This document shows positions 278 through 9,962 of a stretch of 10,193 nt of DNA, piece by piece. The position numbers and the translations under genes were made by a program. Under the pieces are notes generated by a model. The model was not told the DNA's origin. It searched no databases and was given only the letters and a program-made list of their open reading frames with translations. Within the stretch, counting starts at the first letter, position 1; every line of letters begins with the position of its first letter. This DNA is from a bacterium (GTDB lineage: Bacteria > B130-G9): the NCBI GenBank assembly GCA_021160245.1, contig JAGHCW010000194.1:1-10193 (forward strand). Direction: 5' to 3'.

Positions 278-808
278 ATGACGTCCGGAAAGGAAAGTCC
301 CGATAGCGGTCAACAGCCGGAGTTCGTGTTTCGGCCGATAGGTTACGTCCATTGCAGCTATGTCGATCCAGCCAAGACGCCGATTCAGCCAGTATTTGGT
401 CAGGGCTCACAGGCAAAGGTGGTTGTGCTGCCGGAATACGAGGAAGGGCTGGATGATCTGGACGGATTCTCGCACATCTTCATTCTATTCGTATTTCATA
501 AGGCAGGACCTGCAGCCCTGAAGGTCAAGCCCTATCTTGAAAGTGTCAAGAGGGGCGTATTTGCCGCAAGATCGCCCAGAAGGCCCAATCCGATCGGCTT
601 CAGTCTGGTTCGACTGGTAAAGCGCGAGGGGAATGTGCTATTTATCGAGGACATCGATATTCTAGACGGGAGTCCAGTGGTGGACATCAAGCCCTTTATT
701 TCCAGATTTGACACGCGATCGGAGGCGCGCTCAGGATGGCAAGAGGAGATTGCGGACACAGACGCGGAAGAGGTTGGCTCGCGCAGGAGGAAGGAGCCGG
801 GCGAGTAG
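278..808 (+). CDS. trmO: TrmO/TsaA-family protein (probable tRNA m6t6A37 N6-methyltransferase)
   Basis: The 176-residue product is a single TsaA-like (YaeB/TrmO) beta-barrel domain. Family members characterised in E. coli use S-adenosylmethionine to N6-methylate t6A at position 37 of tRNAs that read ACY codons. Visible signatures are FRPIGYV (18-24), the LPEYEEGLDDLDGFSHIFIL block (51-70), the SAM-pocket motif ARSPRRPNPIG (97-107), and LDGSPVVDIKPFI (129-141). It lacks the extra C-terminal domain of the ~235-residue E. coli protein and ends in a charged tail (about 157-176) that may be disordered. The ATG start is supported by GAGGGA at 265-270 with a 7-base spacer. Short TsaA-domain proteins are common in anaerobes and archaea. 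The neighbouring genes concern metal cofactors rather than tRNA, so the tRNA role is assumed from the family and not shown by context. Confidence 0.88.
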   Translation: MTSGKESPDSGQQPEFVFRPIGYVHCSYVDPAKTPIQPVFGQGSQAKVVVLPEYEEGLDDLDGFSHIFILFVFHKAGPAALKVKPYLESVKRGVFAARSPRRPNPIGFSLVRLVKREGNVLFIEDIDILDGSPVVDIKPFISRFDTRSEARSGWQEEIADTDAEEVGSRRRKEPGE

Positions 809-1054: not shown

Positions 1055-1663
1055 ATGGTTTTGGGAAGAGATTCAATTCTTGATTTAGGGATAAAGCTTC
1101 ATGGACATTTGTGCCCAGCGATGCCGTGGGGTCTCAGAGTGGGGCTTGCTGCGATGGCAGCTCTGGGAGTAGAGCGCGCTAAGAACAAGGAGCTTTACTG
1201 CAACTGCGAGGTTGGCGATGCGCACGCTATGATGTGCTTTGCCGATGGAGTGCAAACAGCGACGGGCTGCACCCTTGGTAAGGGCAACATTGCAAAGCTT
1301 GGGTATAACAAGAATGCAATCGAGTTGATAGACGTCAAGAGCAGCAGGGCAGTTCGTGTAACGTGCAAGCCGGAGCGAGTAGTCAAGGGCTTCCAGGGGA
1401 AGTTTTTTGAGCTCAGAAAAAGCGGCGTGGAGCCTCAGGACGTCCCGGAGGAGATTGTCAGGCCGCTTGTCGATGCTGTGTGGTCCGCGCCCGATGACGA
1501 CATTTTGGTCGTGGGCGAGGTTCGCAAAGTTGACTTCGTGCGGCCTAAAGGGACATTTGAGTGGGCGCGCTGCGAACGATGCGGTGAGGTTGTCTTTGGA
1601 CCGGGCCTGCGGATAGTGGATGGTAAGGTTGTCTGCATACCCTGTTCTGGATACAGAGCTTAA
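1055..1663 (+). CDS. FmdE-family protein with C-terminal zinc ribbon
   Basis: The 202-residue product belongs to the FmdE family, named after formylmethanofuran dehydrogenase subunit E but widespread in anaerobes that lack that enzyme. The N-terminal domain shows HGHLCP (16-21) followed by GLRVGLAAM (26-34), and a Cys/Asp motif CFADGVQTATGCTLGKGN (61-78). These are the conserved His/Cys positions thought to bind metal. The C-terminal zinc ribbon has CERC (173-176) and CIPC (194-197). I chose ATG 1055 because AGGAAGGA (1043-1050) lies just upstream; a TTG at 1034 in the same frame has no good ribosome site and would add 7 residues. It leads a run ending at 4185, with the exporter gene 17 bases downstream. 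No other Fwd/Fmd subunit is in the window, so a role in methanofuran chemistry is unlikely; a metal or molybdopterin-related role is inference. Confidence 0.88.
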   Translation: MVLGRDSILDLGIKLHGHLCPAMPWGLRVGLAAMAALGVERAKNKELYCNCEVGDAHAMMCFADGVQTATGCTLGKGNIAKLGYNKNAIELIDVKSSRAVRVTCKPERVVKGFQGKFFELRKSGVEPQDVPEEIVRPLVDAVWSAPDDDILVVGEVRKVDFVRPKGTFEWARCERCGEVVFGPGLRIVDGKVVCIPCSGYRA

Positions 1664-1680
1664 GCGAGGGGGGCAGAAAG

Positions 1681-2439
1681 ATGGACATGACGCTTTCTGC
1701 CCCGCTCATTATTTCAGGCATTGCGTTTGTTTTCTCGATGCTTGGGATGGGCGGGTCGCAGCTCTATATCCCTGTGCTCTTCTGGATGGGGATGGATTTC
1801 AAGACCGAGGCAATTCCGCTTGGCCTCCTTCTGAATATCTTGAACAGTTCCTCGGCGGCTTTCACTTACGGGCGTAAGAAGTTGATCGATTGGCGAACCG
1901 GTGTGCCCTTTGCGATTGCATCAGTCGGCCTTGCACCAGTCGGTGCTTGGCTCAATGTGAAGCTCCCAACTAGGTTCTTGATCGGGGTTTTTGCGGCCTT
2001 CTCAGCGACGGCAGCAATCCTAATGCTTTCCGGTTGGAAGGCGAAACATGGGGAGCTAACTTCTCGTGGTCGACTGATCCTGGGAATATGTGGCGGGGGA
2101 ACGCTTGGGTTCGTGGCGGGCCTTATTGGTCGTGGCGGAGGGTCCTTTATCGTGCCGATGCTGGTCATTGCGGGGCTTGCGCCCAAGATGGCCGCTGCGA
2201 CCTCGGCGTTCATTATCACGTGGTCGGCGGGTTCGAGCTTCCTCTCGCACGTCGCGCTAGCTGCCTCGCCAAACTGGGCAATATGGGCGCCTTGTATTCT
2301 CGGGGTGCTGATCGCCAGTCAATTGGGCTCCAGGCTCATGGCCGCCAAACTCAAGTCCGGCGTTGTCAGGTTCATATTTGGGATTGTTTTGCTTGCGGTT
2401 GCAGCAGCTTTAACTATACAGGATGTGATATTACACTAA
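1681..2439 (+). CDS. TauE/SafE-family membrane transporter (sulfite/organosulfonate exporter family)
   Basis: The 252-residue hydrophobic protein has about eight membrane segments (roughly 8-25, 42-62, 74-92, 98-117, 132-150, 154-180, 199-216 and 228-247). It shows the two-fold repeat typical of the family: the GMGGSQLYIPVLFWMG loop (22-37) in the first half and GLIGRGGGSFIVPMLVIAGL (147-166) in the second. TauE/SafE proteins move small sulfur-containing anions such as sulfite, sulfoacetate or thiosulfate across the cytoplasmic membrane, but most members have no tested substrate. The start is supported by GAGGGGGG (1666-1673), 7 bases before the ATG. It lies 17 bases after the FmdE-family gene and 16 bases before the first ATPase, so co-transcription is likely. 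In this setting it might export a sulfur by-product or import an oxyanion; the sequence cannot decide. Confidence 0.85.
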   Translation: MDMTLSAPLIISGIAFVFSMLGMGGSQLYIPVLFWMGMDFKTEAIPLGLLLNILNSSSAAFTYGRKKLIDWRTGVPFAIASVGLAPVGAWLNVKLPTRFLIGVFAAFSATAAILMLSGWKAKHGELTSRGRLILGICGGGTLGFVAGLIGRGGGSFIVPMLVIAGLAPKMAAATSAFIITWSAGSSFLSHVALAASPNWAIWAPCILGVLIASQLGSRLMAAKLKSGVVRFIFGIVLLAVAAALTIQDVILH

Positions 2440-2455
2440 TGATGGTGGTGAAAGT

Positions 2456-3298
2456 ATGAAAGTAGCAATAGCTAGCGGAAAGGGCGGAACAGGAAAGACG
2501 ACGCTGGCCACGAATCTCGCCATAATGCTCTCGCGGGCGGGTGAGAAGGTTGCATATCTGGATTGCGACGTCGAGGAGCCCAATGGACATATATTCCTGA
2601 AGCCGAACATAGAGAAGCGCGAGACTGTCTATCTACCAGTGCCGGTTGTGGATCAGGATAAGTGTATTTCGTGCCGGAAATGTGAAGAGATATGCCAATA
2701 CAACGCGATTGCCTGCATGGGCAAGAAGACTCTGGTATTTCAGGAGCTCTGTCACGCCTGCGGCGGCTGCTACCTCGTTTGCCCAACGAACGCGATAAGC
2801 GAGACCGACCGCGAGGTTGGTGTGGTTGAGGATGGTCACGCCGGTCCAGTTGGCTTCGCCCATGGGAAGCTCAAGATAGGCGAGGCCCTGTCTCCGCCCC
2901 TCGTAAAGGCGGTCAAGCAGCGCGCCTCGGATGGCTTCACGGTCCTGGACGCGCCGCCGGGAACATCTTGCCCGGCTGTTGAGACGATAATGGACGCGGA
3001 CCTTGTCCTGCTTGTGACCGAGCCCACGCCCTTTGGCCTCAATGACCTTAAGCTAGCGGTTGATATGGCCCGGCAGGTCGGAAGCCTATTTGTGGTCGTA
3101 GTCAATCGATCCGATATAGGAGACGACAAGACGCGGAAATACTGCGACCAGCAGAGGATTGAGGTGTTGGCCGAGATACCGAACGACAGGAGGGTTGCGG
3201 TCTGTTATTCGACCGGCGGACTGCCGATTGATGGTGTCCCGGGCTATGCCGACTATCTGCTTCCGATTGTTGAGAGGATTTTAGGAGGTGCAAGATGA
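2456..3298 (+). CDS. MinD-like P-loop ATPase with inserted two-cluster ferredoxin domain (copy 1)
   Basis: The 280-residue protein is a deviant-Walker (MinD/Mrp superclass) ATPase of the COG1149 type. The N-terminal P-loop KGGTGKTT (9-16) is followed by the DCDVEEPN segment (36-43). A ferredoxin insert then carries two CxxCxxCxxxC sets: C70, C73, C76, C80 and C99, C102, C105, C109. The second of these continues into CPTNAI. The ATPase fold resumes with DAPPGTSCP (165-173) and a VTEPTPFGLNDL block. Such proteins occur in pairs in anaerobes next to NifX/ORP-domain proteins, and in Desulfovibrio they are linked to the orange-protein complex. The expected role is ATP-driven assembly or transfer of Fe-S or mixed-metal clusters in the cytoplasm. 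GGTGGTG (2444-2450) precedes the ATG by 5 bases. The stop overlaps the start of copy 2 (ATGA), so equimolar production is likely. Confidence 0.9.
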   Translation: MKVAIASGKGGTGKTTLATNLAIMLSRAGEKVAYLDCDVEEPNGHIFLKPNIEKRETVYLPVPVVDQDKCISCRKCEEICQYNAIACMGKKTLVFQELCHACGGCYLVCPTNAISETDREVGVVEDGHAGPVGFAHGKLKIGEALSPPLVKAVKQRASDGFTVLDAPPGTSCPAVETIMDADLVLLVTEPTPFGLNDLKLAVDMARQVGSLFVVVVNRSDIGDDKTRKYCDQQRIEVLAEIPNDRRVAVCYSTGGLPIDGVPGYADYLLPIVERILGGAR

Positions 3299-4185
3299 AA
3301 GAGCTAGTTGTCATCTCAGGCAAGGGAGGCACAGGAAAGACCAGCATTGTCGCCTCTTTCGCGACGATCGCTCAGAAGAAAGTGTTGGTGGATTGCGACG
3401 TTGACGCAGCCGATCTCCACCTCGTTCTTGCGCCTCGCATTCTTTCTCGAAACGTTTTCATAGGCGGCAGAGAGACTCGCGTACTGCCCGGACACTGCAC
3501 CGCGTGCGGCAAATGCGAGGAGATATGCAGGTTTGACGCGATTCGCTTCGACGGGCCTGGGAACGGTATCGTGCCTAAGACGTTTAGGATCGACCCCTTG
3601 GCGTGCGAAGGCTGCGGCGTATGCGCTCATTTCTGCGCGGAGAATGCCATCGAATCCAAGCCGAGTCAGAATGGCGAGTGGTTCGTATCAGAGACGAGAC
3701 ATGGGCCAATGGTCCACGCGAGGCTATACTCAGCTGAGGAAAACAGCGGCAAACTCGCAACGTTAGTTCGCAACGAGGCCAAGAAACTGGCAGAAGAGAA
3801 GAGCCTTGACCTGATCATCATCGACGGCGCTCCCGGGATTGGCTGTCCCGTGATAGCCTCGGTAACGGGAGCGGATTTCGTATTGATTGTGACGGAACCA
3901 ACGCTCTCTGGAAAACACGACCTTGAGCGAGTCTTTGAGCTCACAAAATACTTCGGCATAAAGTCTGCGATCTGCGTCAACAAGTTCGATTTGAACATTG
4001 AGATGACTGAGGCGATTGATGCGTTCGCCAAAGACAATGGGGCCAAAGTATTGGGGAGAATCAGGTATGATTCTGCTGTTACTAAAGCCCAAGTCATGGG
4101 CGCAAGTGTTGTAGAATATACAAGCGGAGCGGTTGCTAATGAGATAAAGGCGCTCTGGCGCAATGTCGTCTATGAGATGGCTTGA
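3295..4185 (+). CDS. MinD-like P-loop ATPase with inserted two-cluster ferredoxin domain (copy 2)
   Basis: The 296-residue paralogue of the upstream gene has the same plan: P-loop KGGTGKTS (10-17), DCDVDAADLH (33-42), a ferredoxin insert with C68, C71, C74, C78 and C104, C107, C110, C114, then DGAPGIGCP (177-185) and VTEPTLSGKHDL. The spacer between the two cluster motifs is longer and less similar than in copy 1, and the second motif ends in CAENAI rather than CPTNAI. The two copies are therefore old paralogues, not a recent duplication, and probably form a heterodimer. A strong TAGGAGGTG (3282-3290) precedes the ATG, which overlaps the upstream stop by 4 bases. The gene ends 41 bases before a GC-rich hairpin that may end the transcript. 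Confidence 0.9.
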   Translation: MKELVVISGKGGTGKTSIVASFATIAQKKVLVDCDVDAADLHLVLAPRILSRNVFIGGRETRVLPGHCTACGKCEEICRFDAIRFDGPGNGIVPKTFRIDPLACEGCGVCAHFCAENAIESKPSQNGEWFVSETRHGPMVHARLYSAEENSGKLATLVRNEAKKLAEEKSLDLIIIDGAPGIGCPVIASVTGADFVLIVTEPTLSGKHDLERVFELTKYFGIKSAICVNKFDLNIEMTEAIDAFAKDNGAKVLGRIRYDSAVTKAQVMGASVVEYTSGAVANEIKALWRNVVYEMA

Positions 4186-4362
4186 GGGGTTGACAGTTGA
4201 GTGAACGTGTATGAGCACTTGGGTAGGACGGGCTTTCCAGCCCGTCCATTGTTTTCGAATGCGGGCAATTATGTGGCAGGCTGGAAGGACCACCTTACAC
4301 TAGGTTATTCGGGCGCGAGGTTGGCGGCTGACAGCTGATGGTTCGCGGTTAAGTGAGAGTTT
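4186..4362. other. Intergenic gap with hairpin and short repeats
   Basis: These 177 bases separate the two gene runs. They hold a near-duplicate of the downstream leader (4196-4216 against 4349-4369, 17 of 21 identical), the word shared with 939-951, a 9-bp hairpin at 4226-4247, a weaker palindromic stretch at 4273-4296, and the word shared with 952-965. No ORF of note is present. The promoter for the downstream run may lie here, but I cannot place it confidently. Confidence 0.5.
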
Positions 4363-4369
4363 ATGAGCA
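4196..4369. repeat. Imperfect direct repeat pair around the hairpin gap
   Basis: The 21-base stretch at 4196-4216 and that at 4349-4369 agree at 17 positions and both end in TATGAGC, the second copy containing the ATG of the methyltransferase gene. The first copy therefore looks like a displaced, decayed duplicate of the methyltransferase start region, left on the far side of the hairpin. It could come from a local duplication or from insertion of the material between. The match is short and imperfect, so this is suggestive only. Confidence 0.35.
4226..4247 (+). terminator. GC-rich hairpin: intrinsic terminator or REP-like element
   Basis: GGACGGGCT (4226-4234) pairs perfectly with AGCCCGTCC (4239-4247) around a TTCC loop, giving a 9-bp stem. 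It is followed by ATTGTTTT (4248-4255), a modest T-rich tract. It sits 41 bases after the second ferredoxin-insert ATPase and before the methyltransferase gene, where it could stop or thin out transcription. Palindromes of the form GGxxGGCTTTCCAGCCxxCC are also typical of REP sequences dispersed by RAYT transposases. A weaker relative with CAGGCTGGAAGG in the opposite orientation lies at 4277-4288. I cannot tell the two roles apart without genome-wide counts. Confidence 0.6.
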
Positions 4370-5070
4370 ACAGCCCGGAGCGGTCTTTATTCGATTTCGA
4401 TGAGGTGGCGGACAACTATGAGGATTGGTACGAGAGCAGAATAGGCCGGACTTATGATCGCCTCGAGAAGCAGGCAATCCGAGCCGCGCTCGGACCCGTG
4501 CCCTCCGGTAAGACGCTTCTGTCAATTGGCTGTGGAACCGGTCATTTCATGGAATTGTTCAAAAGGCAGGGCTTTTCAGTTACGGGAATTGATGTCTCAG
4601 AGAAGATGATCAATTTGGCGTCGGCGAGGTCGGGCGCTTCCGCGCGATATGCCCTTGCGGATGGACAATTTCTCCCTTTCGCGAATGGCGCTTATGATGT
4701 CGCATGTGCCATCACGGCGCTGGAGTTTGTGCCAGATGCGAAAGCGGCGATTATGGAGATGGCGCGCTGTGTGAAGCCTGGTGGCTGTATAATTGTTGGC
4801 GTCCTGAATCGCGTGTCCTTGCTTGCGTGGCTTAGACGGCGCAGGAACTCGCCCATATTCAGAAGCGCGAATTTGATGTCGAAAAAGGATCTAAAAACGC
4901 TACTTGGTGCAATTGGCGATGCAAGTGTCTATTCAACCACGGTCGTCTTGCCGTGGCCCGGATTTATAGCTCTTTCAGGAGCGCTCTCCGCTCTTGTGAG
5001 CTTCTTTGGTTTTCCGTTCGGGGATTTTTTGATTGGTATTGTGAAGGTTGACTCAAATAAGGAGATATGA
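4363..5070 (+). CDS. Class I SAM-dependent methyltransferase (type 11-like)
   Basis: The 235-residue protein has a Rossmann-fold methyltransferase core. Motif I is LSIGCGTGH (53-61), followed by the acidic strand end GIDVSEKM (75-82), [18 protein letters not shown] (97-114) and the post-motif [16 protein letters not shown] (132-147). The N-terminal [17 protein letters not shown] is typical of small-molecule (UbiE/type 11) enzymes. The C-terminal part (about 194-227) is unusually hydrophobic for the family and could contact a lipid or a partner. The substrate cannot be read from the sequence. Its stop overlaps the start of the Mrp-ORP fusion gene, so the two are probably co-translated; a role in metal-centre maturation or signalling would be inference. 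The ribosome site (GAGAG, 4355-4359) is weak. Confidence 0.8.
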
Positions 5071-6371
5071 TGGCAAGCAATGGGAAGCATGAGGGACACG
5101 ACTCGGATTCTCGTTCAGAGGGAGCAAACGGCCCAGAGATGACGGCGGAGATTAAGGACAGGGAGTACATCAGAGAGCAGCTCTCGGTAATAAAGCATAA
5201 GGTGCTTGTGCTGTCCGGAAAGGGCGGCGTAGGAAAGAGCACGGTGGCTGTGAATCTCGCCGCTTTCCTAGCTGGACAAGGCATGAAGGTCGGTCTTTTG
5301 GACATCGACATACATGGTCCGAGTGTCCCAGAACTTCTCGGCCTTAAGAGCGCCACCGTTGAGGGGCGTGATGGCAAATTGCTCCCCGTCATGTCCGGCC
5401 AGAACCTGAAGGTCATGTCGATTGGATTTTTGATTCGCAACCCGGACGAGGCGGTCATCTGGAGAGGTCCGATGAAGTATGGCGTGATCAAGCAATTCCT
5501 AAAAGATGTGATCTGGGGAGAACTGGACTATATGATCGTCGATTCCCCCCCCGGAACAGGCGACGAGCCTCTGTCAGTTGCCCAGCTTATCGACAACCCG
5601 GACGGCGCGGTCATCGTCACCACGCCTCAGGCTCTCTCTTTATCCGATGTTAGAAGGTGCATCGGATTCTGCCGCAAACTCCACGTCCCAGTGCTGGGAG
5701 TCGTCGAGAACATGAGTGGATTCGTCTGCCCAAATTGCGGCGAGAAGGTCGATATATTCAAATCAGGCGGCGGCATGAAGATGGCTAGCGACATGAGTGT
5801 CCCCTTCCTGGGGAGCATCCCGATTGATCCAGCAATCGTGGTCGCGTCCGATGCAGGCACGCCATTTGCTGAAGGATCGGCTAGCTCCGATGCTGCCGAC
5901 GCTTTTCAGAAGATTGCCGCGTCGGTTTTGTCCCGCACGGGCGGCGAGACGGCACAAACAGCAGTCGAGTCATCGACGAAAACGTCTGAGATTGAATCCG
6001 ACGAGGAGATGCCAGTAACTAAGATCGAGACCAAGAAGATTGCCGTGCCCGTTATCGAAGGAAAGCTGTCTCAGCATTTTGGTCACCCCGAATACTTCGC
6101 TATTTTCGATGTGGATACCTCGACAGGAAAGGCGCTTTCATCTCAGAAAATCGACTCGCCTCCTCACCAGCCGGGCCTTCTGCCGGGATGGCTCCATGAA
6201 CGAGGCGTTCAGGTGATCATCGCCGGTGGGATGGGTAGCCGGGCAAAGGACCTGTTCTCTGAGCGTGGCGTTGAGGTCGTGCTGGGCGTCGGAACCGATG
6301 ACCCCTCGGCTTTGGTCGAGGCGTATTTGGCGGGGACTCTGACGTCAGGAGACAACCTCTGCGACCACTGA
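5070..6371 (+). CDS. Mrp/NBP35-type ATPase fused to a NifX/ORP (DIMC) domain (MrpORP-like)
   Basis: The 433-residue protein has two parts. Residues ~40-290 are an Mrp/NBP35 Fe-S carrier ATPase: P-loop GKGGVGKST (50-58), [10 protein letters not shown] (78-87), [12 protein letters not shown] (157-168), ENMSGF (213-218) and CPNC (220-223), whose cysteines in this family hold a [4Fe-4S] cluster at the dimer interface. There is no Cys in the N-terminal tail, so it is Cfd1-like rather than Nbp35-like. A Thr/Ser/Glu-rich linker (~290-318) leads to a dinitrogenase Fe-Mo cofactor biosynthesis (NifX/NafY/ORP) domain with [17 protein letters not shown] (323-339) and [15 protein letters not shown] (382-396). 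The same fusion is known from Desulfovibrio as MrpORP. ATG 5070 is 5 bases after AAGGAG (5059-5064); the in-frame ATG at 5067 has only 2 bases of spacing. It links the ferredoxin-insert ATPases upstream to the lar genes downstream. Confidence 0.92.
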
Positions 6372-6392
6372 GCCCGGTGGGGTGTTTCACGA

Positions 6393-7244
6393 ATGGAGAC
6401 TGAGCGAATGACTGATGATATGGCAAGCGCCGAGAAGCTGTCCAAGCTGAGTCGCTTGCTTGCCGAGATGCAGAGCGTGCTCGTTGCCTTCTCTGGTGGA
6501 GCGGACAGCGCTTTCCTTTTGAAAGTGGCCTCTGATGTTCTCGGCGATAACGTGATCGCCGCGACGGCGACGGGGGAGATATATCCAAAGCGGGAGCAAG
6601 AGCAGGCAAAAGAGCTGGCAGAGGCGCTCGGCGTTCGGCACGTTACGTTTCAAGCTGAGCAGATGAAGGACGCGGACTTCGTCGCAAGCACTAAGGACCG
6701 CTGCTACTTCTGCGCAAGGCTTGTCGGAGGCCGATTGCTTGACATCGCGGCCAGCATGGGGGCAGCGGTCGTGGTGAACGGTACGAACGCCGATGACGAG
6801 AACGACTATCGTCCGGGGATGAGGGCTGCCCGGGAACTCGGCATTCGAAGTCCATTAAGCGAGGTGAGGCTAAATAAATGTGAGATCATCGCGATCTCAA
6901 AGGAATTGGGCCTGCCCACCTGGGACAAACCGTCCGATTCATGCCTCGCCACGAGGGTGCCTTATGGTGTTCAGATGACTGTCCAACGGCTCGCAAGGAT
7001 TGAGGCGTGCGAGGAGTTTTTGCGGCGCTTGGGTCTCGGTCAGGTTAGGGTGCGAGATAGTGGCGATACAGCGAGGATAGAGTCGCTGATGGCAGATATG
7101 CCCAGAATTGTTGATAAAGCCGTCTCGTCGGAGATTGCGAGGCACTTCAAGGCGCAAGGCTATACATACATCAGTCTGGACATCGAGGGATATAGAACTG
7201 GAAGCATGAACGAGACATTTGGGCAAAGGAGCGACGTTGGATAG
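6393..7244 (+). CDS. larE: LarE, ATP-dependent sacrificial sulfur transferase for the nickel-pincer cofactor
   Basis: The 283-residue PP-loop enzyme adenylates the carboxyl groups of pyridinium-3,5-biscarboxylic acid mononucleotide and replaces them with thiocarboxylates. The PP-loop motif is FSGGADS (33-39). Family blocks are DRCYFC (102-107), NGTNADD..DYRPG (129-142), SPLSEV (153-158), LPTWDKPSDSCLATRVPYG (174-192) and RVRDSGDTARIE (219-230). C184 matches the sulfur-donating Cys of Lactiplantibacillus plantarum LarE (C176). With C104 and C107 it makes a three-Cys set of the kind in LarE proteins that use a [4Fe-4S] cluster instead of sacrificing a Cys; that subtype call is inference. ATG 6393 has GGTGGGG 10 bases upstream. 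ATG 6408 has GGAG with a 9-base spacer, so the first 5 residues are uncertain. It lies 21 bases after the MrpORP-like gene. Confidence 0.93.
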   Translation: METERMTDDMASAEKLSKLSRLLAEMQSVLVAFSGGADSAFLLKVASDVLGDNVIAATATGEIYPKREQEQAKELAEALGVRHVTFQAEQMKDADFVASTKDRCYFCARLVGGRLLDIAASMGAAVVVNGTNADDENDYRPGMRAARELGIRSPLSEVRLNKCEIIAISKELGLPTWDKPSDSCLATRVPYGVQMTVQRLARIEACEEFLRRLGLGQVRVRDSGDTARIESLMADMPRIVDKAVSSEIARHFKAQGYTYISLDIEGYRTGSMNETFGQRSDVG

Positions 7245-7989
7245 GGAGAAGATTCGGGAGTTGCTGTCGGACCTCTCGGCGCACAAAGTCACGCCGGACG
7301 AGGCGTTCGAGCAGCTTAAGTCTCTTCCCTATGAGGACTTGGATTGGGCCAAAGTCGATACACATAGGGCTCTGCGCAAGGGGTTTGCAGAGGTGGTACT
7401 CTGCACGGGCAAAACGGATGAGCAAGTCGCCAAGATCGTTCAGAGGCTCTCGTCGTCCGGAGCGCCCGTTCTGGCGACAAGGGCCAAAAGGTCAGTTTTC
7501 GAGGCTGTCAGAGGGGTCAGAGATGATGCTGTCTATCACGAGACGGCGAGGATAGTGGTGGTCGGAAAACCTAACAGCCCAGTTACTGATAAGCAGATAC
7601 TGATCGTGAGCGCAGGCACCTCGGACCTTCCGGTCGCGGAGGAGGCGGCCATAACAGCCGAGACGATGGGCAATCGAATTGAGAGGCTATACGATGTTGG
7701 TGTTGCGGGTATTCACCGCCTGTTGGGTAATTTGGAGAAATTAAGGGCTGCTAACGTGCTAGTCGTAGTGGCCGGTATGGAGGGCGCGCTGCCCAGCATC
7801 GTCGGAGGCATTGTCGATAGGCCGGTAATCGCCGTCCCAACCAGTGTGGGATATGGAGCGAGCTTCGGCGGCCTTTCCGCCTTGCTGGGGATGCTGAACT
7901 CCTGCGCGCCGGGCGTCGTGGTCGTGAACATCGACAACGGTTTCGGGGCTGGATATGCGGCAAGCGTAATGAATCGGATGGGAGAATAG
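7237..7989 (+). CDS. larB: LarB, nicotinate adenine dinucleotide carboxylase/hydrolase of the nickel-pincer pathway
   Basis: The 250-residue protein is LarB, a PurE-like enzyme that carboxylates the pyridinium ring of nicotinic acid adenine dinucleotide and hydrolyses the phosphoanhydride to give the biscarboxylic mononucleotide used by LarE. An N-terminal helical region (1-60) precedes the PurE-like domain with VSAGTSDLPVAEEA (124-137), VAGMEGALPSIVGG (178-191), PVIAVPTSVGYGASFGG (196-212) and NSCAPGVVVVNIDNGFGAGY (221-240). C223 corresponds to the active-site Cys of the L. plantarum enzyme. I prefer the TTG at 7237 because AAAGGAG (7225-7231) lies 5 bases upstream; a TTG at 7219 would add 6 residues without a good site. 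The start lies inside the last codons of larE (8-base overlap), so translation is probably coupled. Confidence 0.93.
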   Translation: MDREKIRELLSDLSAHKVTPDEAFEQLKSLPYEDLDWAKVDTHRALRKGFAEVVLCTGKTDEQVAKIVQRLSSSGAPVLATRAKRSVFEAVRGVRDDAVYHETARIVVVGKPNSPVTDKQILIVSAGTSDLPVAEEAAITAETMGNRIERLYDVGVAGIHRLLGNLEKLRAANVLVVVAGMEGALPSIVGGIVDRPVIAVPTSVGYGASFGGLSALLGMLNSCAPGVVVVNIDNGFGAGYAASVMNRMGE

Positions 7990-7990
7990 A

Positions 7991-9169
7991 TTGAGAATTG
8001 CATACTTCGACTGCTTCTCCGGAGCCAGCGGAGACATGTTTATCGGGTCGTTGATGGACGCCGGCCTATCACTTGATCGCCTCAAGCAAGAGCTTTCCAA
8101 GCTCGGCGACTTGCAGTTTACGATAAGCGCCGCGAAGGGCATGAAGGGCGCGCTTTCGGGCACGAAGTTCGATGTCGAAGCCCATGAGGGGCACATCCAT
8201 CGCCACTTACGTCACATCGTCGAGATGATTGACGGGAGCGAGCTCAGTGACGGCGTCAAGGCCAAGAGCAAGGCTATTTTCGAGCACGTCGCGACGGTCG
8301 AGGCGGGTATCCACCAAAGCGACGTTCAGAAGGTTCATTTTCACGAGGTGGGAGCCCTTGACTCGATAATCGACATCGTTGGCTCAGTGGTGGCGCTCGA
8401 GCTTCTCGGCATCGATGCGGTCTATTGCTCAAAAGTCCACGTTGGAACTGGCTTCGTTGAATGCCAGCATGGTACTATCCCAGTCCCAGCGCCCGCGACG
8501 CTGGAGCTGCTCAAGGGGATACCCATCTACTCAAGGGGCATTGAGGCGGAGCTTGTAACTCCGACCGGCGCGGCGCTTCTTAAGAATATCAGTAGGGATT
8601 TTGGCGCAATGCCGCCAATGAGAGTCGAAAGCGTTGGCTATGGGCTGGGCACGAGAGACCTCGAAATACCCAACATGCTTCGAGTTACGATTGGCGAGAA
8701 TGATTCCGGCGGCTTTGACCGCGATCAGGTTGCCCTCATCGAGACGAACCTGGACGATGCGAATCCAGAAATCCTAAGTCACGCCTGTCAATTGCTCTCT
8801 GAACGAGGCGCGCTTGATGTCTTTATGACGCCAATTGTCATGAAAAAAGGAAGATTGGGAACGATGCTCAGCGTCCTGACCACCCAAGAGCGCCTCAATA
8901 AGTGCCTCGAGACGGTCTTCGCCGAGACAACAGCTCTGGGTGTCCGATTGAGTTACTTGGATAGGCGGAAGCTCTTTAGAGAGACGCGCTCGGTCGATAC
9001 AAAATTCGGCAAGATAGATGTCAAACTGGCCAAATCTGGCGAAGAGACTAAAAACATAGCGCCGGAATACGAATCGTGTAGGAAAGTCGCAGCTGATTTG
9101 GGCGTCCCTTTGAAGCAGATTTACGATGAGGCGAAGTCCGCCGCAGAGAAGCAACTGCTTGACGATTGA
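7991..9169 (+). CDS. larC: LarC, CTP-dependent nickel insertion protein (unsplit)
   Basis: The 392-residue protein is a full-length LarC, the cyclometallase that inserts nickel into the bisthiocarboxylated nucleotide to finish the NPN cofactor. The N-terminal half shows YFDCFSGASGDMFIGSLMDAG (5-25), a His cluster (H65, H68, H70, H72, H75), KVHFHEVGALDSIIDI (114-129) and GTGFVECQHGTIPVPAPATLELL (152-174). The C-terminal half shows ETNLDDANPEIL (251-262), MKKGRLGTMLSVL (284-296) and KNIAPEYESCRKVA (354-367). In L. plantarum the halves (LarC1/LarC2) are joined by a programmed ribosomal frameshift; here one uninterrupted frame spans both. TTG 7991 has GGGAG (7980-7984) 6 bases upstream and begins one base after the larB stop. 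Confidence 0.94.
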   Translation: MRIAYFDCFSGASGDMFIGSLMDAGLSLDRLKQELSKLGDLQFTISAAKGMKGALSGTKFDVEAHEGHIHRHLRHIVEMIDGSELSDGVKAKSKAIFEHVATVEAGIHQSDVQKVHFHEVGALDSIIDIVGSVVALELLGIDAVYCSKVHVGTGFVECQHGTIPVPAPATLELLKGIPIYSRGIEAELVTPTGAALLKNISRDFGAMPPMRVESVGYGLGTRDLEIPNMLRVTIGENDSGGFDRDQVALIETNLDDANPEILSHACQLLSERGALDVFMTPIVMKKGRLGTMLSVLTTQERLNKCLETVFAETTALGVRLSYLDRRKLFRETRSVDTKFGKIDVKLAKSGEETKNIAPEYESCRKVAADLGVPLKQIYDEAKSAAEKQLLDD

Positions 9170-9219
9170 TGGACCGGCTTTGGATAGAAAAGACTTACTG
9201 ATAATAGAAAGGCTTACAA

Positions 9220-9516
9220 ATGCCAACTTATGAGTATGAATGCACGAAGTGCGGCGTACATTTCAATAAATTGCAGGAGATGAGCGACGAGCCGCTCAAA
9301 ACATGTCCCGAATGCGGCGGCAAAGTCCGCCGATTGCTGGGGACGGGCGCCGGGATCATCTTCAAAGGAAGTGGCTTCTACACCACAGACTACAAGCACA
9401 CCCACGCCTCACCATCCACCATCCCCAACTCCGGCGGCAACCGTGCCAGCTGTGACAGATCAGCCCCCTGCTGCGGCCGAGGCGAGCCCTGCGATAAAAG
9501 CCCCTGTTCCGACTAA
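9220..9516 (+). CDS. FmdB-type small zinc-ribbon protein with Cys-rich tail
   Basis: The 98-residue protein begins MPTYEYECTKCG, the hallmark of the FmdB/CxxC_CxxC_SSSS family. It has zinc-knuckle pairs C8/C11 and C29/C32, followed by FKGSGFYTTDYK (48-59). The tail (about 73-98) adds six more Cys, including CCGRGEPC and the end CDKSPC. This ending recurs in many FmdB relatives as I remember them, which supports the frame to the very end. The family was named as a putative regulator of formamidase/formylmethanofuran genes, but its function is not established. A ribosome site AAAGG (9208-9212) precedes the ATG by 7 bases. It lies 50 bases after larC and may end the run. Despite the similar name it is unrelated to the FmdE-family protein at 1055. 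Confidence 0.85.
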   Translation: MPTYEYECTKCGVHFNKLQEMSDEPLKTCPECGGKVRRLLGTGAGIIFKGSGFYTTDYKHTHASPSTIPNSGGNRASCDRSAPCCGRGEPCDKSPCSD

Positions 9517-9755
9517 CGATATACTCTGTCCCCGACTCAAGGAGGCTGTGGGATTATCCTGCACGCGAAGAGGCGGAGGTGGGGCGTAAGGGTCGCCGGG
9601 TCGGGAATGTGTCTGCCAAAATTAGGCTATGCATATACTTGAGAGCGTCAGCACACTGCGCTAATTGACTCGATCGTGTTTGAACAGTATTCTAATTACT
9701 GAAAACTGCATAGCTTTGGATTCACTTGGGTGTAAGGATGAAGAGGAGAAGACAG
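9517..9755. other. Intergenic region before the small basic protein gene
   Basis: These 239 bases contain no gene that I can support. A frame running at 9371-9589 overlaps the FmdB-type tail and continues here, but it reads as low-complexity Pro/Ala/Thr and has no ribosome site. I see no clear terminator after 9516. A sigma-70-like promoter is placed at 9665-9693 and a ribosome site at 9743-9748. Confidence 0.45.
9665..9693 (+). promoter_or_regulatory. Sigma-70-like promoter for the small gene at 9756
   Basis: TTGACT (9665-9670) and TATTCT (9688-9693) match the -35 and -10 consensus at 5 of 6 and 4 of 6 positions, with an ideal 17-base spacer. A transcript would begin near 9700, leaving a leader of about 55 bases that contains the GAGGAG ribosome site at 9743-9748. 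This is the best-formed promoter I found in the window. It suggests the small gene is transcribed on its own rather than from the upstream run. Confidence 0.5.
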
Positions 9756-9962
9756 ATGGCAAAAAAGCCATTGAATCATAGGAAGATGCGGACGACGCAG
9801 GAAACAAGCGAACTTAAGAGGCTCGTGAGGGGAAACACGCCCACGCGCCTCATTGGTCTCAAGCTTGGTAGGAGTCCATCTGCGGTTTATGCTAAGGCAG
9901 GCGAGGAACGAATCTCGCTGAGGCCCACCAATCAGTCGCCATACAATCGTCGGAAGCCCTGA
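9756..9962 (+). CDS. Conserved small basic protein of the PTNQSPY type, possible DNA-binding
   Basis: The 68-residue, strongly basic product begins MAKKPLNHRK. It carries ELKRLVRGNTPTRLIGLKLG (19-38), then RSPSAVYAKAGE (39-50), and ends with ISLRPTNQSPYNRR (53-66). Small proteins with this 'NTPTRxIGLKLGR-AV-KA-ISL-PTNQSPY' layout occur in many bacteria, usually unnamed. The spacing of helices resembles a single Myb/SANT or GcrA-like helix-turn-helix, so DNA binding is plausible but not shown. I chose ATG 9756 because GAGGAG (9743-9748) lies 7 bases upstream; a TTG at 9726 and an ATG at 9738 in the same frame lack such a site. The gene has its own likely promoter at 9665-9693. Confidence 0.75.
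   Translation: MAKKPLNHRKMRTTQETSELKRLVRGNTPTRLIGLKLGRSPSAVYAKAGEERISLRPTNQSPYNRRKP

Follow-up and report, generated by a model that had tools for sequence, protein, structure and literature searches.

We found that the genes of an ORP/MrpORP iron-sulfur (Fe-S) module and those for synthesis of the nickel-pincer nucleotide (NPN) cofactor (larE, larB, and larC) are joined into one block, TauE-ATPase1-ATPase2-methyltransferase-MrpORP-LarE-LarB-LarC, whose order is the same in all four genomes of the phylum, as far as their contigs reach. An order shared by all four genomes, which span three genera, makes the block more than chance. The reading we favor, at about an even chance, is that the two modules form one lineage-specific block in which MrpORP would load the two ATPases with clusters and, as one client, LarE.

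The stretch of DNA analyzed, here called the window, is one entire contig of 10,193 bp (G000:C185) from the MAG G000 (3.43 Mb in 244 contigs, ~95% complete). The phylum is a poorly sampled lineage, and our sample of it is small: four MAGs (G000 and its relatives G001, G002, and G003) of one family and three genera. The relatives' contigs that bear the block junction are 6 to 129 kb long; those of G002 and G003 break inside the block, and gene order there is readable only to the contig ends.

All of the families named in an earlier note on this DNA are present where it had placed them on the plus strand, as judged by curated profile matches. The upstream edge of the block is formed by a TrmO-type tRNA methyltransferase gene (278..808; TIGR00104, 133 bits, over cut-off), which also belongs to the neighborhood and has to be added to that note's otherwise correct gene list: It is 84% identical in G001 and adjoins the block there. 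The next gene encodes an FmdE-family protein with a C-terminal dksA/traR-like zinc finger, the latter a weak match (1055..1663; PF02663, 100 bits). FmdE was on the list but is a variable member, missing from the block of G001 (L039), where TrmO directly precedes TauE. The conserved run begins with a TauE/SafE-family membrane exporter (1681..2439; PF01925, 134 bits; 82.5% identity between window and G001) and two ATPases, each with an inserted 2x[4Fe-4S] ferredoxin domain (PF01656 and Fer4 in both). Atp1, of CbiA/MinD/Mrp type and Orp3/Orp4-like (2456..3298), has all eight ferredoxin cysteines conserved in the alignment; Atp2, of CbiA/MinD type (3295..4185), was identified from the alignment as well as the profiles and is 76-78% identical in the related genomes. 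A class I SAM methyltransferase (4363..5070; PF08241, 78 bits) precedes MrpORP (5067..6371), a member of an Fe-S carrier family in which an Mrp/NBP35 ATPase is fused to an ORP (Di-Nase) domain. The match to MrpORP is full length and over the curated cut-off (NF041136, 523 bits against 450; PF10609, 340 bits; PF02579, 64 bits).

Downstream from MrpORP lie the genes for LarE, a PP-loop sulfur insertase with a CXXC-C motif (6393..7244; TIGR00268, 294 bits); LarB (7219..7989; NF033503, 297 bits), which may actually begin a few codons past 7219; and the nickel insertion protein LarC, with LarC1 and LarC2 in one frame (7991..9169; PF01969, 478 bits; TIGR00299 and NF052512 over cut-off). All three members of this NPN biosynthesis set score over curated cut-offs, and by these profiles they are ordinary. 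The description of the Lar genes as a complete module therefore holds for cofactor synthesis but does not extend to LarA, which is not in the window. Genes within the block are closely packed: Atp1 and Atp2 overlap by 4 bases, as do the methyltransferase and MrpORP, and LarE and LarB also overlap; LarB and LarC are separated by 1 base, and MrpORP and LarE by 21 (about 10 bp in G002). An FmdB-type zinc ribbon protein follows LarC in the window (9220..9516; TIGR02605, 77 bits) and was not found 3′ of LarC in G001 or G003 (L039, L040). Still further downstream is a small basic open reading frame (9726-9962, up to 78 amino acids), which contains MAKKPLNHRKMRTTQETSELKRLV and SPSAVYAKAGEE and whose product looks like a small DNA-binding protein; a sigma-70-like site lies 5′ of it, at 9665-9693. 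No RNA family matched anywhere in the window, and promoter- and terminator-like sites occur in it at a frequency not above that in shuffles.

The full run from TrmO through TauE to LarC is present in G001, and the order from ATPase1 to LarC is kept in G002 and G003, to the limits of their contigs. This is so despite protein identities to the window that range from ~49% (the methyltransferase of G002) to ~82% (LarB and TauE of G001). Outside the block, the neighbors in the window and G001 differ: In addition to the absence of FmdE, an epimerase-like gene rather than FmdB lies 3′ of LarC in G001. A wide separation of the two modules in close relatives, which the earlier note had named as counting against its idea, was thus not seen; adjacency is kept in every phylum genome examined (four out of four). 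The yardstick for synteny was a set of closely spaced same-strand pairs, each with an anchor gene at least 50% identical, drawn from about 0.48 Mb of G000 set against 1.03 Mb of G001. The neighbor is kept in six out of eight pairs in the window and 12 out of 26 in the G000/G001 background, a difference that is not convincing alone. The longest conserved run in this partial comparison is the window's own, of eight genes; the next longest are of five genes (the larA region, which was deliberately chosen) and four, with background run lengths limited by contig ends and by 20-kb pieces. One ancestral joining of the genes, inherited since, may account for the conserved order.

ATPase2 is followed by a gap of 177 bases, the largest in the conserved block, in which a scan for terminator-like sites detected a 9-bp perfect hairpin on the plus strand (4226..4247). 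The hairpin belongs to a dispersed REP-like repeat: Six copies with up to three mismatches occur in 0.48 Mb of G000, compared with none for ten scrambled palindromes. In G001, a dispersed REP-like palindrome of another sequence occupies the same ATPase2-methyltransferase gap (L039:13209-13230) and also occurs in other pieces of that genome. Because the repeat hairpin stands between ATPase2 and the methyltransferase, it may split the block into two transcription units, the second being methyltransferase-MrpORP-LarE-LarB-LarC.

Outside the phylum we found no trace of the pairing. We took 80 MrpORP-type loci, from many phyla and all in named genomes, with flanks of at most 10 kb per side; tblastn detected LarB, LarC, or LarE in the flanks of none. 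A positive control set contained 29 LarC loci, and the same LarC query matched every one. In this survey, larC is present elsewhere in the genome in 34 of 50 MrpORP genomes, and of those 34 loci, 33 have at least 3 kb downstream from MrpORP and 28 have it on both sides. A second, independent survey covered 386 genomes, with MrpORP over the cut-off in 28, 24 of them outside the phylum. LarC is present in 13 of these 24, and in none of the 13 do the two genes lie within 50 kb; they share a contig in one genome only, about 56 kb apart and on opposite strands. Similarly, the seven genomes outside the phylum that have both LarC and an ATPase2-like protein in a 60-genome sample always carry them on different contigs. 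A search of plasmids with LarC matched distant lar genes only. The pairing thus stands at four out of four inside the phylum and zero out of 13 outside: It is confined to this lineage and is not general. The enrichment across phyla that the earlier note had proposed to look for is rejected on these counts.

Other genes of the window have wider associations with MrpORP. Among the 80 loci of the first survey, ATPase2 occurs in 55, ATPase1 in 49, TrmO in 14, FmdB in 12, and a related methyltransferase in eight. Relatives of the class I methyltransferase (40-45% identity) stand directly before MrpORP in the Planctomycetota-type MAG loci L049, L053, L108, and L112. The methyltransferase-MrpORP pairing is wider than that of MrpORP with Lar.

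The MrpORP P-loop is conserved in the alignment, and both cysteines of the CXXC motif that would hold the bridging cluster in the P-loop domain (C221-P-N-C224) are invariant in six sequences. In the ORP domain, the window's protein reads HFGHPEYF; the other five sequences in the alignment read HFGHC, so that Pro takes the place of a Cys conserved among them. MrpORP is the only Mrp-type protein in each of the four phylum genomes at E ≤ 1e-60. SufB/SufD had no match in any of the four, although the search was positive in each of 14 control genomes. Three of the four have an IscU/NifU-type scaffold. With MrpORP as the sole Mrp-type protein found, and no SUF genes detected, its role in this lineage is probably that of a general Fe-S carrier, and the same two results leave few evident substitutes for it. 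In Desulfovibrio, MrpORP carries a transferable Fe-S cluster and loads apo-aconitase and Orp3-Orp4-Orp8 in vitro (PMC6345978). As the main reading, we rejected cluster supply by the ATPases: The published flow runs the other way, MrpORP giving clusters to the ferredoxin-insert ATPases and to aconitase, which makes the ATPases clients (PMC6345978).

The earlier note's description of LarE as a three-Cys protein is borne out: C104, C107, and C184 align in all four phylum genomes and are invariant, giving a CXXC and a distant Cys. In Thermotoga maritima, the LarE CXXC-C motif binds a [4Fe-4S] cluster that is required for sulfur transfer, and the motif occurs in most LarE homologs (PMC9283937); it is therefore not special to this lineage. 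LarE here is a probable [4Fe-4S] client on the strength of its sequence. Because it has the CXXC-C motif of [4Fe-4S] LarE, it is plausible that MrpORP feeds clusters to it. As an Fe-S sulfur insertase, LarE is labile to oxygen.

The probable user of the NPN cofactor is an unlinked, malate-racemase-like LarA. Each of the four phylum genomes has one LarA, away from the block and outside the window; the larA regions are L133:9179-14936 (G000:C2), L134:9052-14808, L135:1229-6975, and L136:58-2656. Among all LarA models, the best match is to the malate racemase LarAH6 (NF052593), at 336.6 bits; because this is below the cut-off of 500, we assign the protein to the LarA superfamily only. The catalytic residues H107, H174, K184, H200, Q295, and K298 are invariant in the four genomes; we take them to match H108, H174, K184, H200, Q295, and K298 of L. 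plantarum LarA. Citrate synthase, a LeuC/LeuD-type aconitase, and NADP isocitrate dehydrogenase are encoded beside larA in G000, G001, and G002; in G003, whose contig is short, only isocitrate dehydrogenase is seen there. In the literature surveying LarA, the main text of one survey does not mention isocitrate or citrate synthase, and another does not mention aconitase.

In the reading we favor, MrpORP would load the two ferredoxin-insert ATPases with [4Fe-4S] clusters, as is known for the Desulfovibrio ORP complex, and would do the same for the CXXC-C cysteines of LarE, one of several clients. LarE would then use cluster-bound sulfide to thiolate the LarB product, and LarC would insert nickel, chemistry that is established for these families; the finished NPN cofactor would pass to the unlinked LarA. 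Joining of the genes would ensure that the carrier and the cluster-dependent enzyme are made together. The curated profile identities speak for this reading, as does an order kept with small gaps and overlaps at ~49-82% protein identity. So do the CXXC-C cysteines of LarE in all four genomes, in vitro cluster transfer by Desulfovibrio MrpORP, the scarcity of evident substitutes for this carrier, and a single LarA per genome with its catalytic residues kept. Against it are the lack of the pairing at all 80 loci and in all 13 genomes outside the phylum, the many organisms whose lar genes have no adjacent MrpORP, the commonness of CXXC-C LarE, and the hairpin that may divide the block 5′ of the methyltransferase. 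That MrpORP is a physiological cluster donor to LarE in this phylum, so that NPN synthesis would include Fe-S delivery as a genetically encoded step, we advance only tentatively and think somewhat unlikely.

The lineage-restricted distribution is what would be expected had a single insertion placed larEBC behind an MrpORP gene expressed under anaerobic conditions, with co-regulation or hitch-hiking alone and no biochemical relation between MrpORP and LarE. The genes may have remained in place because the cell needs both under anoxia, or because separation from the promoter carries a cost. This account, which we consider a real possibility though short of even, is also favored by the location of larA elsewhere, by the methyltransferase, TauE, TrmO, and FmdE having no evident link to NPN, and by the status of MrpORP as sole Mrp-type protein, which probably has many clients. 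It sits less well with an order that has outlasted such protein divergence across three genera while the flanks of the window and G001 changed, and with LarE itself being a probable [4Fe-4S] client. The same tight, conserved coupling, together with the failure to find SUF genes in the four phylum genomes, could instead point to MrpORP, perhaps with the ATPases, being specialized to build or repair the LarE cluster, the whole block being a unit for NPN production. We regard this as improbable: A sole Mrp-type carrier argues against specialization, typical Fe-S clients such as the aconitase-type enzyme are also present, and homologous ATPase/MrpORP modules occur elsewhere without lar genes. The 244 contigs of the source MAG raise the question of an assembly or binning artifact joining two unrelated fragments, an explanation already refuted, with hardly any probability left to it, by the identical junction in three independent relatives. 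A conserved block with a known carrier beside LarE suggests a specific donor-client pair; should MrpORP not load LarE, the block would be a clear case of genes joined within one lineage but not functionally coupled.

ATPase1, ATPase2, and MrpORP are the counterparts of Orp3, Orp4, and Orp9 in the ORP complex of Desulfovibrio (Orp3, Orp4, Orp8, and Orp9/MrpORP; PMC6345978), with which the block shares a full-length Mrp-ORP fusion adjoined by two MinD-type ATPases with ferredoxin inserts. It differs in adding the methyltransferase, TauE, TrmO, and larEBC, and the window has no sigma-54 regulator. A stand-alone, Orp8-like ORP (PF02579), which the ORP complex includes, was not found in G000 or G002, where only the MrpORP domain was detected; G001 and G003 have two copies each, those of G001 lying upstream of the block. 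LarE resembles the [4Fe-4S] LarE of T. maritima (PMC9283937) in its CXXC-C motif, its PP-loop SGG.DS, and its family by curated profile. Unlike the T. maritima protein, it is encoded behind MrpORP, and its cluster is predicted. The lar operon of Lactiplantibacillus plantarum has larB, larC, and larE for NPN synthesis, all of which are present in the window's block. Compared with that operon, the order here is E-B-C, LarC is in one frame, and the block is without larA (which is unlinked), a transporter, or a lar regulator. The earlier note did not know the combination as a described system; its Fe-S/ATPase set is in fact the described ORP complex, and we found no publication in the open-licence literature, a limited body, that covers MrpORP and LarE together or their joined block. 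Both modules are already described, and what is new, as far as that limited literature shows, is their joining into one conserved block.
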